Source: Paenibacillus rubinfantis
Lineage (GTDB): Bacteria > Bacillota > Bacilli > Paenibacillales > Paenibacillaceae
NCBI RefSeq assembly: GCF_001486505.1
Contig: NZ_LN909063.1
Coordinates: 124,001-188,000 of the forward strand
DNA length: 64,000 nt
Direction: 5' to 3'
A program made the translations under genes and the position numbers. Positions within the stretch are counted from its first letter, which is position 1, and each line of letters opens with the position of its first letter. The notes below the pieces were generated by a model that searched no databases, was not told where the DNA came from, and saw nothing but the letters and a program-made list of their open reading frames with translations. Below are positions 45,921 to 50,693 of the stretch, in pieces.

Positions 45921-45960
45921 AAAAACCCAGCCCATTCCAATTGAATGAGCTGGGTTTTTT
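45921..45960. terminator. Strong hairpin before the heme operon end
   Basis: AAAAACCCAGC and GCTGGGTTTTTT arms with inner CATTC/GAATG pairing. Works for both strands. Confidence 0.85.
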
Positions 45961-45977: not shown

Positions 45978-46313
45978 TTATCTCGCGATTTCTTTCAGTG
46001 AGGCGACTTCATAGGTGATCAACTGGCTTTCGAGAATCGGAGATTCTTTTGGCTCCCCATGGGAGCTTGGCTCCGGACGCTTGTGGGCTTCTTTAAAGCG
46101 ATCACTGTTTCTCCACGCTGTGAAATCGTCCATGGATTCCCAATGCATATTCACATTTAGTTCATCATGATCTGCGTGTTGCGCCAGGAGTACCTCAACT
46201 TTCACAAGCCCTTGCGTTGAATCCAGCGAACCGGAGGCCGTAAAGCCAGGAGCCATGATCGCTCCCATTCCTTTTCTGACCTGAATTCGGTTGGTGACGA
46301 CGATCATCTTCAA
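45978..46313 (-). CDS. IsdG-type heme-degrading monooxygenase
   Basis: 111 residues, ABM ferredoxin-like dimer fold. The IsdG heme-oxygenase triad is present as Asn8 (VVTNRIQV), Trp67 (FTAWRNSDRF) and His77 (KEAHKRP), with the terminal SPILESQLITYEV strand. IsdG-type enzymes open the heme ring, releasing iron. It is the last gene of a three-gene operon (11-nt gap to HrtA), consistent with disposal of excess cytosolic heme. The triad and context make this more specific than the generic ABM annotation. Confidence 0.78.
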   Translation of the reverse strand: MKMIVVTNRIQVRKGMGAIMAPGFTASGSLDSTQGLVKVEVLLAQHADHDELNVNMHWESMDDFTAWRNSDRFKEAHKRPEPSSHGEPKESPILESQLITYEVASLKEIAR

Positions 46314-46324
46314 CCCCTCCTTAT

Positions 46325-47026
46325 TTAGTGTGCCAAATGAACCTGCTTCGTAAGCTGCAGCTTGCCATCCTCCATGTGATACACCTTATCGCAATACTCG
46401 AGCATACGCTCATCGTGAGTTACCATAACCGCCGCAATTCGGCGCGTCTTCACTTGGTTTGCGATCAGGCTGACCACTTCGTGCGCTCGCTTGGTATCGA
46501 GGCTGGCCGTGGGCTCATCTGCCAAAATCACGTTGGGATGATTCATCAAGGCCCGTGCAATCGCAACCCGTTGTTTCTCGCCGCCTGACAGCTCTTCCGG
46601 GAAGCTTTTTAACTTCGCCCCCAGCCCTAATTCCTCCAGCAGCTTGACGGCGTACGCTTTATCCTCCGCACTTATCTTTCCGGCCATCTTCTTTACGACC
46701 AGTAACTGGTCAAGGACTTGGAGGTAAGGTACCAGATTGGAAGACTGCATAATAAACCCGATTTCTTGCAATCGTATACTGGACAACTCTTTATCGGACA
46801 GCTTGGAGAGAGGCAGCCCATTCAAGGTAACTTCCCCCTCGGAGGCTTTGAGCAGAGCTCCAGCAATGGATAAGAAGCTGCTTTTCCCTGATCCCGAAGG
46901 GCCAACGACAGCGACAAATTCCCCTGGCTCAACGGTAATAGACACATTCTCCAGGGCGCATACCCGGGTGCTGCCCTCGCCGTAATATTTAGACACATTG
47001 GTTAGTTGCAAACCCATGGTTGTCAT
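46325..47026 (-). CDS. hrtA: Heme efflux ABC ATPase (HrtA-like)
   Basis: 233 residues. Walker A GPSGSGKSS, Q-loop region EIGFIMQSSNLVPYLQVLDQ (a stretch characteristic of HrtA), signature LSGGEKQRVAIARAL, Walker B VILADEPTASLD and H-loop VMVTHDERML. MacB/LolD class exporter ATPase. The ATG overlaps the permease stop by one base (TAATG), so the two subunits are coupled. Energises export of membrane heme in HrtAB systems. The symbol is assigned by sequence resemblance and operon context. Confidence 0.72.
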   Translation of the reverse strand: MTTMGLQLTNVSKYYGEGSTRVCALENVSITVEPGEFVAVVGPSGSGKSSFLSIAGALLKASEGEVTLNGLPLSKLSDKELSSIRLQEIGFIMQSSNLVPYLQVLDQLLVVKKMAGKISAEDKAYAVKLLEELGLGAKLKSFPEELSGGEKQRVAIARALMNHPNVILADEPTASLDTKRAHEVVSLIANQVKTRRIAAVMVTHDERMLEYCDKVYHMEDGKLQLTKQVHLAH

Positions 47027-48147
47027 TATTCAACCCTCCCAAGCGCTTGAAGCGGATCTATTTTTGTAATTTTACGAACCGAAACCAGTGAACTCAGCAC
47101 GGCAATCATCAAAAGGACAATCGAATAAACGATGACTAGCTTGGTATCCAGCATAAACGGCATGCCCTTTGGCATGATCGCCGCAGTCCCGTAGGCTAGA
47201 AGGACCCCGATGACAATACTAACCAACGAAAGAACGAATACTTGCGACACAATCGCTCTACTTAAGAATCCGTTCTTTGCACCGATAGCTTTCATGATCC
47301 CGAATTGGTTCGTTTTCTGCATCGTCATGACGAAGAAGAACACACCTAGCACAAAGGCGGAAATGACGAACAAGAAGGCCAGCATCATCAAGATGGTGCC
47401 GCTCTCTTCCTTGTAGCCGGGCATTCCCTGTACTGCTTTCGCACGGGTTACGGTGTCGGTATTCGTGAGCTTGCTGCTGATCGTATCCGGATCAATATCC
47501 GATCCCTGCAGCATAATCGCGTTGACAGGTCCTTCAATCCCTTTATCCGAGCCAGGCGCAGCAAACGCGATTTCGCGCCATTCCGGCATCGGAATAAACA
47601 CGGCCGGAAGGTGGTTATAGGTCTGATCTTCAACAAACCCTATAATCGTTAAGGCCACGGTGGATCCGTCCAGCTTGAACGTATCTCCAAGTTGGAACCC
47701 TTCGTCCTTCATGGAATCGTTAACGATAACGGCGGTTAAGTTCTCATTCGACAGCGGGTCGCCTTGAATTACAGCCGGCTCCAGGAAGCTTCCGGGAAGA
47801 ATACCCAAGATCGCGATATCCACTTTATCGTCATTGTTCGTGCTATCGCCTTTCAGAGCGGTTGCCATCGTGCTTCCCATCGGAGCCGCTGCAAGTACAT
47901 TCGGCAATTTCTCGGCTTCACCCACCAATTGTTCGGATAGGAGGGACTTGCTCATGGAAGACTGGGCCCCTTGCTCGAAGACCACATAATCTGCTTTCAT
48001 ATTTTTAAAAGCTGATGCCGCCAGGGAAGATAATCCGTTCCCCAATCCGGATAGAATGAAGACGAGCCATGCCATCATGACAAAAATGATGACAATCATC
48101 GAAAACCTCATCTTACTGTGCAGGATCTCTTTCATTGCTAAAAACAT
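47026..48147 (-). CDS. hrtB: Heme efflux ABC permease (HrtB-like, FtsX fold)
   Basis: 373 residues. N-terminal helix MKEILHSKMRFSMIVIIFVMM continuing into LSGLGNGLSSLAASAFKNM, then a large extracytoplasmic domain and three C-terminal helices: the FtsX/MacB permease fold. The N-terminal segment resembles HrtB of Gram-positive heme exporters. First gene of the operon; its promoter region holds two HrtR-like dyads, and the regulator is divergent. Ribosome-binding site GAGGAG is 13 nt upstream, rather distant. Confidence 0.72.
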   Translation of the reverse strand: MFLAMKEILHSKMRFSMIVIIFVMMAWLVFILSGLGNGLSSLAASAFKNMKADYVVFEQGAQSSMSKSLLSEQLVGEAEKLPNVLAAAPMGSTMATALKGDSTNNDDKVDIAILGILPGSFLEPAVIQGDPLSNENLTAVIVNDSMKDEGFQLGDTFKLDGSTVALTIIGFVEDQTYNHLPAVFIPMPEWREIAFAAPGSDKGIEGPVNAIMLQGSDIDPDTISSKLTNTDTVTRAKAVQGMPGYKEESGTILMMLAFLFVISAFVLGVFFFVMTMQKTNQFGIMKAIGAKNGFLSRAIVSQVFVLSLVSIVIGVLLAYGTAAIMPKGMPFMLDTKLVIVYSIVLLMIAVLSSLVSVRKITKIDPLQALGRVE

Positions 48148-48177
48148 AGGGTTTGTTCATCTCCTCACTCTATTTTT

Positions 48178-48251
48178 GACACATGTGTCTAATTTAATAC
48201 GGCTAAATCATTACCTCTTGATTAAACACCATTTTGACACTCGTGTCAAAA
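48178..48251. promoter_or_regulatory. Two HrtR-like operators
   Basis: GACACATGTGTC at 48178-48189 and TTTTGACAC-TC-GTGTCAAAA at 48232-48251, centres 58 bp apart. Their GACAC/GTGTC arms resemble the palindrome bound by the Lactococcus heme sensor HrtR. They lie between hrtB and the TetR gene. Confidence 0.7.
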
Positions 48252-48276
48252 ATAAAAATATGGAAGTGCTTTTTTC

Positions 48277-48843
48277 CTACTTTATTGCTCCTCCCATCCA
48301 CACCTCAAACAGCATCTTGCTCCATTGGGGAAGCGGAACACTCATCATATTTGGCGTATTGATCAGATTAAAAAACACACCCACATGAACGGGAAGCGGG
48401 ATGTCTTCTCTTAATTTGCCCTCCTGCTGGGCTTTCTGGAACAGACGGGTCAGCTGGACCTTGAGAAAATCGTGGGCTTCTTCAACAAATTCAATATCAC
48501 GGCGCGCAGCTTCCGAATTCGACGTTTTGATTTTATACGCATCGCTTAAGAGCTGATGCAACTGGTATTCCTCCAGGTAGATCCCCAGTAGCTCCTGAAG
48601 AGCCTGCATCGCGTCGGACTCGTCAAGGGCAGAGGCCTTCTCAAGGATCCCTGCAGTAACGCGTTTCATGCACGCAGCAACGATCTCATCTTTATTGGCA
48701 AAATACTGATAGATTGTACTGCGGGCGCCTGGCAGGTGCTGCGAGAGCAATTTAAGATTAAACCCGTCGTAACCGTGCTCCAGCACCAAACGTTTCGTCA
48801 GGTTCAACAGCTCCGAATGGGAGTAGGATTGTTTTCTAGCCAA
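48277..48843 (-). CDS. TetR-family regulator, probable heme sensor (HrtR-like role)
   Basis: 188 residues. The TTG at 48843 fits AAAGGAG at 8 nt; the frame upstream would add KPGLKKGDFP without a ribosome-binding site. Helix-turn-helix NLKLLSQHLPGARSTIYQYF, then helices of a ligand domain. It is divergent from hrtB and flanked by its dyads. Whether it binds heme cannot be seen in sequence: the His pair of HrtR is not evident. The role is assigned through operator similarity and operon content. Confidence 0.75.
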   Translation of the reverse strand: MARKQSYSHSELLNLTKRLVLEHGYDGFNLKLLSQHLPGARSTIYQYFANKDEIVAACMKRVTAGILEKASALDESDAMQALQELLGIYLEEYQLHQLLSDAYKIKTSNSEAARRDIEFVEEAHDFLKVQLTRLFQKAQQEGKLREDIPLPVHVGVFFNLINTPNMMSVPLPQWSKMLFEVWMGGAIK

Positions 48844-49077
48844 TGGGAAGTCTCCTTTCTTTAGACCTGGCTTCAATCGCCTCTCTCTAGTTTAGCATAA
48901 GGAGATAGGCTTTATCAGCGGAACATTCATCCTGCTCTAGCCCGCCCTACCGAATGTGGGTTGACAAAACGAACAACGAGGATTAAGATTGATAAAAATT
49001 TCACATTCATTGTAACAAATGAACAATTGAATACTTACAAGCTATGATGGCTATGGATCGCACTATAGCCGGAGCAG

Positions 49078-49143
49078 CTTCTGGAGAGACCGCGGTTCCC
49101 GCGGCGCCGAAGGGTTCACAATCTCAGGCAAAAGGACAGAAGA
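49078..49143 (+). promoter_or_regulatory. Glycine riboswitch aptamer
   Basis: P1 arms CTTCT (49078) and AGAAG (49139) enclose GGAGAGACCGC, GCGCCGAAGGG and ATCTCAGGCAAAAGGAC, the conserved core of gcvT-type glycine aptamers. A second hairpin at about 49160-49187 (TTGGTA and TACCAA outer arms, GGCG/CGCC inner) may be a ghost second aptamer. The terminator hairpin at 49214 lies between it and the permease gene, so glycine binding should control read-through. Confidence 0.85.
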
Positions 49144-49213
49144 GGATAAATCCATCGATTTGGTAGGCGGTTCGCCGAGTATACCAAGTCCTATTTATTC
49201 ATCTTACGTACCG

Positions 49214-49313: not shown

Positions 49314-50693
49314 ATGGCACAACAGGAATTAAAGAGAGATCTGGCGAATCGGCACGTTCAGCTGATTGCAATTGGCGGCACAATTGGGACGGGGTTGTTC
49401 CTCGGATCCGGTAAAGCGATTCAGCTGGCCGGGCCGTCGATCGTTTTTGCCTATCTGCTTGTGGGGATCGCCGTTTTTTTTGTGATGAGAGCATTGGGAG
49501 AACTGCTGTTGTCCAAAGCGGGATATCAATCCTTCACGGACATTGCCGAAGATTATCTGGGACCGCGGGCAGCGTTTGTCACCGGTTGGACCTACTGGTT
49601 TTGCTGGATCATGACGGCCATGGCCGACGTGATTGCGGTGGGGGTCTACGTGCAGTATTGGTTTGACATCCCGCAATGGGTTCCGGCCGTGATCTGCTTG
49701 ATCATTTTGCTGGGGCTAAATCTATTAACGGTAAAAAATTTCGGTGAATTGGAGTTTTGGTTTGCCTTAATCAAGGTCGTTACGATTCTTGTGCTCATCG
49801 CCCTTGGAGTCATTTTGCTGGTGATCGGATTCAAGACGGATGCTGGAACCGTTACGGCAACAAATATTTGGGCCCATGGCGGCCTCTTTCCTAATGGCAT
49901 CCAAGGCTTCCTGCTCTCGTTCCAAATGGTCGTGTTCGCTTATGTTGGCGTGGAGCTGGTTGGGGTATCGGCGGCAGAAACGTCCAATCCGGAGAAAAAT
50001 ATCCCGTCGGCCATCAATAAAATTCCGCTGCGCATTTTATTCTTCTACGTTGGCGCTTTGATCGCGCTCTTATGCATTAACCCCTGGACGGGGCTAACTC
50101 CGGCGGAGAGCCCGTTCGTGAAGACGTTTAGCCTGGTTGGCATTCCGATTGCGGCGGGAATCATTAACTTTGTTGTCTTAACCTCGGCCGCTTCCGCCTG
50201 CAATAGCGGGATGTTCTCGACCAGCCGGATCCTGTATAACTTAAGTAAAAACGATCAAGCTCCCTCGCGGATGGCGAGATTAAACCGAAACCATGTACCT
50301 GGTAACGCCTTGCTGATTTCCACGCTGGTTATCTCGGTAGGAGCGCTGCTGAGCAAGCTGATCCCGGGGCAGGCCTTTGGTATCGTGACGACGATTAGCG
50401 CCATTTGCTTTATTTGGGTCTGGGGCGTGGTGCTGGTGTGCCATCTTCGGTATAAACGTACACGGCCGGAACTGCAGGCGAAATCCAAGTTTAAAGCGCC
50501 GTTTACGCCTTGGGTGAATTATGTGGTCCTCGCGATGTTTGCGGGCATTTTGCTGATTATGCTGATTGCGGAGGAGACCCGGCCGGCCCTGTTGCTAACG
50601 CCGCTGTGGTTCATTATCTTGTTTGTGTTGCATGCGCTAAGAAAACGCAAGGAACAGGAGCCTCACGCTCCCCTAGAGCAAACCCGTCTCTAA
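49314..50693 (+). CDS. cycA: Amino acid permease, CycA-like (glycine/alanine/D-serine)
   Basis: 459 residues, twelve transmembrane helices, APC superfamily. IAIGGTIGTGLFLGSGKAI is the substrate-binding helix 1 signature, and GEL(L)LSKAGYQSFTDIAEDYLGPRAAF the helix 3 region. The sequence resembles CycA, and the glycine riboswitch in front supports glycine as a substrate. AGGGGGAG sits before the ATG. Confidence 0.83.
   Translation: MAQQELKRDLANRHVQLIAIGGTIGTGLFLGSGKAIQLAGPSIVFAYLLVGIAVFFVMRALGELLLSKAGYQSFTDIAEDYLGPRAAFVTGWTYWFCWIMTAMADVIAVGVYVQYWFDIPQWVPAVICLIILLGLNLLTVKNFGELEFWFALIKVVTILVLIALGVILLVIGFKTDAGTVTATNIWAHGGLFPNGIQGFLLSFQMVVFAYVGVELVGVSAAETSNPEKNIPSAINKIPLRILFFYVGALIALLCINPWTGLTPAESPFVKTFSLVGIPIAAGIINFVVLTSAASACNSGMFSTSRILYNLSKNDQAPSRMARLNRNHVPGNALLISTLVISVGALLSKLIPGQAFGIVTTISAICFIWVWGVVLVCHLRYKRTRPELQAKSKFKAPFTPWVNYVVLAMFAGILLIMLIAEETRPALLLTPLWFIILFVLHALRKRKEQEPHAPLEQTRL

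Follow-up and report, generated by a model that had tools for sequence, protein, structure and literature searches.

A TetR-linked operon of Paenibacillus rubinfantis that probably joins HrtBA-type heme export to IsdG-type heme degradation

An operon of Paenibacillus rubinfantis, in which the genes of an HrtBA-like pump and of an IsdG-type monooxygenase follow a TetR repressor gene, is probably a self-contained heme detoxification module that exports and degrades heme under the control of one repressor. The operon lies in the window, i.e., the whole analysed stretch of 64,000 nucleotides. Each of its parts is of a known kind, and their combination is apparently an unreported variant of the HrtBA heme-defence systems. 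No report of an hrtBA operon with an IsdG-type enzyme, nor of an hrtBA linked to a PadR regulator, was found in full-text open papers, a coverage outside which most subscription journals lie and which makes the silence weak evidence.

Operon layout, promoter and putative operators

Read 5' to 3' on the minus strand, the tetR gene is followed by a gap of 129 bp, the hrtB-like, hrtA-like and monooxygenase genes and a terminator. The features are the following:

48277..48843, minus strand: tetR repressor gene, 188 aa, TTG start with AAAGGAG upstream; Pfam TetR_N
48221..48249, minus strand: predicted promoter of hrtB-hrtA-monooxygenase, TTGACA-17-TTTAAT, consensus match only
48235..48248, no strand: putative operator 1, TGACACTCGTGTCA, palindrome overlapping the -35 box
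48177..48190, no strand: putative operator 2, TGACACATGTGTCT, palindrome downstream of the -10 box
47026..48147, minus strand: hrtB-like FtsX permease gene, 373 aa
46325..47026, minus strand: hrtA-like ABC ATPase gene, 233 aa
45978..46307, minus strand: IsdG-type monooxygenase gene, 109 aa from ATG; 111 aa from the TTG at 46313
45921..45959, minus strand: strong stem-loop terminator 3' of the operon, -26.4 kcal/mol, z -7.05

The open reading frames bear out the three minus-strand genes of the preliminary description, and the tight coupling that it reported is real, as the hrtA ATG overlaps the hrtB TAA by one base (TAATG, at 47026) and 11 nt separate the hrtA stop from the monooxygenase TTG start. 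Its divergent TetR is ruled out; tetR lies upstream of hrtB on the same strand as the operon and is codirectional with it. The monooxygenase probably starts at the ATG at 46307, since the ribosome-binding site fits this codon better than the TTG. The catalytic triad is N6/W65/H75 from this ATG, and the earlier numbering (Asn8/Trp67/His77) is right when counted from the TTG at 46313. The terminator is probably bidirectional and faces a convergent SDR gene. Elsewhere in the window, a glycine riboswitch (Rfam RF00504, 53.6 bits, gathering 32) at 49071-49149 on the plus strand precedes an amino-acid permease gene (49314-50693).

The promoter is flanked by two 14-bp palindromes (TGACAC-NN-GTGTCA), both inside the tetR-hrtB gap. 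These palindromes are conserved across Paenibacillaceae, and both of them are kept together with the -10 region in 12 aligned promoters of relatives. There is one perfect site in the 5.37-Mb genome of the organism, where the sole close pair of such sites is that of the tetR-hrtB gap; four further sites with one mismatch lie singly at scattered places or look like chance, and the palindrome scan of the 5.37 Mb saw no wider regulon beyond the tetR-hrtB pair. Among the family genomes, TTGACACNNGTGTCAA is present in 31 of 247. Thirty of the family sites were inspected, of which 26 fall in the tetR-hrtB gap, one precedes a lone monooxygenase gene and three lie elsewhere. Hence, given this placement and the conservation, the palindrome is the likely operator of the local TetR, which would bind both copies. 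Perfect TTGACACNNGTGTCAA sites away from tetR-hrtB, at loci L266, L267 and L270, are probably due to chance.

The layout equals that of fhtR-hrtBA in Enterococcus faecalis, which argues, as does the conservation of the operators, for a heme module. There too the TetR gene lies directly upstream of hrtB-hrtA, and the hrtBA promoter carries two 14-nt palindromes (PMC7858072). The E. faecalis HrtB and HrtA are 33% and 53% identical to those of the window. The two systems differ in their operators (TTATCAATCGATAA and TTATCGATTGATAA in E. faecalis, TGACACNNGTGTCA in the window) as well as in their regulators, which are not orthologous; E. faecalis moreover has its HrtB in another clade and no monooxygenase gene. 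Likewise, hrtBA of Lactococcus lactis is under the cytosolic control of a TetR-type protein, HrtR, encoded upstream (PMC11442138). Unlike the window, HrtR is autoregulated and uses His72/His149, and no monooxygenase is reported with it (PMC11442138).

Relatives of the repressor, the pump and the enzyme

All tetR orthologues checked encode proteins of 188-189 aa, and the predicted structure of the local TetR (pLDDT 87.8) has the general TetR fold, which resembles many drug and lipid sensors. HrtR was not among its phmmer relatives at E 0.1; an FhtR-type protein matched with 20% identity over 118 aa (E 8e-5), mainly in the DNA-binding half. The repressor as an orthologue of HrtR or FhtR was consequently dropped, as no such orthology is detectable by sequence, and this speaks against a heme module. 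HrtR is also missing from the fold matches listed for the local TetR, which is not evidence against kinship. The residues H96, H124, Y89 and C58 are invariant in 19 TetR orthologues and are candidate ligands of heme, which would be the signal of this repressor.

The fold of the regulator leaves room for a different operon, one of defence against drugs or quinones, in which the repressor would sense a hydrophobic antimicrobial, a MacB-type pump would expel it and an enzyme of the ABM fold would oxidise it or a quinone. Quinol and polyketide monooxygenases are among the proteins with the ABM fold, and the export of antimicrobials is common in FtsX/MacB-type pumps. This explanation is nevertheless unlikely, because the permease resembles HrtB much more than it does MacB or BceB, and the enzyme clears the cut-off of a heme-specific model and has the IsdG triad.

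The best solved relative of the permease is HrtB of Corynebacterium diphtheriae (PDB 7w78, 7w78_B; phmmer E 7.7e-27, residues 1-371), followed by YtrF and MacB at E 3e-4 to 4e-4. Its AlphaFold model (mean pLDDT 84.7) retrieved the HrtBA entries first in Foldseek, with TM 0.76/0.82 as against 0.65 or less for the other entries. By sequence and predicted fold, therefore, the permease is over its full length nearer to HrtB than to MacB, LolE or BceB, so that for this protein a placement among peptide or lipid exporters, which would have spoken against the preliminary description, was not found. Its residue E248 aligns with Glu219 of the C. diphtheriae protein, a heme axial ligand (PMC11442138). 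This closeness to the solved exporter, with Glu219 kept, suggests that the pump moves heme.

The ATPase, encoded next to hrtB, is of the MacB/LolD kind and is less telling. It matches C. diphtheriae HrtA with E 1.4e-44; LolD and others score slightly better, and family alone is thus not decisive for its identity. A family assignment by HMM was accordingly set aside as proof of HrtA, for it does not discriminate. Of the HrtBA assignment made earlier by resemblance, the part that concerns the permease holds, and the ATPase by itself does not settle the matter.

In the permease tree, the window protein, which is 91% identical to its P. barengoltzii counterpart, belongs to a clade of its own (100/99) with permeases whose genes are linked to those of TetR or PadR regulators. 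HrtB proteins linked to HssRS-like two-component genes form a separate clade (97/99), this linkage being read from neighbour genes with the domains checked for one pair. A third clade (100/100) holds the E. faecalis (FhtR-linked) type; the genome so labelled probably deserves this name, as exact copies of P1 and P2, the FhtR operators, lie there between hrtB and a TetR gene that encodes Tyr132. The window permease lies outside the clades of this tree that hold a characterised heme exporter and sits beside them, and to our knowledge its own clade has no characterised member. Heme export by the characterised members of the surrounding clades (PMC7858072) is in keeping with a heme pump.

The residue at position 219 looked at first like a yes/no test of heme export, and this use was dropped after Gln was found there in the third clade. 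The E. faecalis pump is proven to export heme (PMC7858072); Glu219 is hence supportive, not decisive, and that it is no strict marker weighs somewhat against the heme module. In certain Lactobacillales (loci L198, L202, L203 and L207), Gln-type HrtBA-like pairs adjoin carotenoid synthesis genes that by eye look like crtM/crtN. In one genome (L181 and L226), another type of TetR and a YhgE-like membrane protein adjoin hrtBA of the window's clade. A further genome carries a decaying copy (L223, 3285-4960), in which hrtB has lost its first 256 codons and tetR, one operator and hrtA remain.

The HssRS-HrtBA systems of Staphylococcus, Bacillus anthracis and Listeria resemble the window in their homologous pump with the Glu219 equivalent, and differ from it in two-component control and in a separate permease clade at 33-43% identity. 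No monooxygenase gene was seen in the stretches read around them. Of the genomes sampled from the genus, 5 have the hrtBA type of the window, 18 have HssRS-HrtBA and none has both (chance 0.023 with relatedness ignored). A mutual exclusion of the two was not used as an argument, as many other Paenibacillaceae carry two copies.

The monooxygenase exceeds the cut-off of the NCBIfam heme-oxygenase model NF009840 (131.2 bits vs 119) and scores below those specific to IsdG and IsdI. Its PDB matches are IsdI, over nearly the full length, IsdG and another heme-degrading structure. The Asn/Trp/His triad, which together with the ABM fold is common to the IsdG/IsdI/HmoB-type enzymes, is invariant in eight aligned homologues. 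The IsdG-type identity first proposed from the triad is thereby upheld, and the model score with the intact triad argues for a heme module in which the enzyme would degrade heme, presumably to an oxo-bilin. The setting is different from that of Staphylococcus aureus, in which isdG closes a Fur-controlled heme-uptake operon (PMC6018153); the window gene closes an efflux operon.

The signal and substrate could also be another porphyrin, such as coproheme or protoporphyrin from the organism's own synthesis, in place of heme b. Exposure to host heme is lower for a free-living organism with a heme synthesis of its own. Moreover, porphyrin efflux is known in streptococci (PMC2858704). The present data do not separate porphyrins; since the characterised IsdG-type enzymes act on heme, this possibility is considered quite improbable, and heme is preferred.

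Linkage of pump and enzyme across genomes

The gene order of the window recurs in other genomes. When loci were drawn by the enzyme, 15 of 80 had hrtB-hrtA directly upstream of the monooxygenase gene; the window and a genome from a different family bring the loci with the order permease-ATPase-monooxygenase to 17 in total. Their regulators are of three types, namely the TetR of the window (4 loci), another TetR (1) and PadR (12), the last in Neobacillus, Bacillus, Lysinibacillus, Aquibacillus and Peribacillus. This recurrence, together with the sole close palindrome pair of the genome, exceeds what chance would give and supports a joint role in heme detoxification. The enzyme tree is poorly resolved and does not group all linked enzymes together, and hence repeated linkage or loss is likely.

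The linkage may also take the form of a shared operator. For example, the genome of Cohnella panacarvi has only two perfect operators, one at hrtB and the other, 0.9 Mb away, upstream of a lone monooxygenase gene, from whose ATG it is separated by about 23 bp. Likewise, a 12-bp operator core precedes the lone monooxygenase gene of P. xylaniclasticus. The NF009840 cut-off is also exceeded by five homologues that come from other loci and are either linked or preceded by the operator. Pump and enzyme are thus tied to each other either by operon or by operator, and the operator shared with the Cohnella panacarvi enzyme gene is a further argument for the heme module.

Alternatively, TetR-HrtBA may be the defence and the monooxygenase a mere passenger, whose role is confined to iron recycling or whose place in the transcript is due to chance. 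Most TetR-linked hrtBA copies of this type have no adjoining monooxygenase gene (loci L214-L222), which implies that the pump can do without the enzyme and counts against the heme module; in addition, the majority of the enzyme's close homologues are encoded by solitary genes. The linkage under three regulator types, with the operator before the lone enzyme gene in Cohnella and its core in P. xylaniclasticus, makes a passenger improbable, and joint detoxification remains the favoured explanation.

Some Bacillaceae cassettes are adjoined by a reductase gene, the best solved relatives of whose product include human biliverdin IX-beta reductase (E 1.7e-23), and the presence of such a gene beside several cassettes is again in line with heme degradation. 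BLVRB-like genes, encoding NAD(P)H-binding proteins, lie beside PadR-hrtBA-monooxygenase cassettes at L128 (6492-7109), L130 (7213-7830), L135 (6624-7235), L137 (3281-3892) and L209 (2167-2778). Another such gene lies beside a lone monooxygenase gene (L043, 4657-5268).

Proposed mechanism and implications

In the proposed mechanism, the TetR protein from the adjacent upstream gene would sit on the two palindromes around the hrtB promoter and keep the operon off. Rising heme, or a close porphyrin, would bind the repressor and free it from DNA. HrtB-HrtA would then take heme from the membrane and expel it with ATP, and in the cytoplasm the monooxygenase would cleave the heme ring to an oxo-bilin, with release of the iron, so that export and destruction would be induced together from one transcript. 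A precedent for such joint induction is the ChrAS regulon of C. diphtheriae (hrtAB and hmuO), in which one signal induces heme export and degradation (PMC6018153). Unlike the window, ChrAS is a two-component system that acts on separate loci, and HmuO is an unrelated oxygenase of the HO-1 type.

The preliminary description had read export and degradation as a joint function. The gene-order survey that it called for and the operator shared in trans strengthen this reading; it is weakened by the non-discriminating ATPase and by a TetR that is neither divergent nor detectably orthologous to HrtR or FhtR. A wider view, towards which the evidence leans by a little, is that heme export and IsdG-type degradation have been assembled or re-linked under one switch repeatedly in Bacillales, either as a single transcription unit controlled by TetR or PadR or as two loci that a common operator unites into one regulon, in some Bacillaceae with a bilin/flavin reductase, and that the local TetR is another, unrelated cytosolic heme sensor for hrtBA.

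Research on HrtBA pumps has dealt mostly with protection from host heme, and that on IsdG enzymes mostly with their role in iron scavenging as part of uptake operons. If the above is true, the small monooxygenase would be recast as a detoxification enzyme, and heme defence would matter outside hosts, in free-living bacteria. The TetR would be a new candidate for a repressor that responds to heme, with an operator that is both short and defined, and the recurrent coupling of pump and enzyme would be useful to specialists and testable by them.
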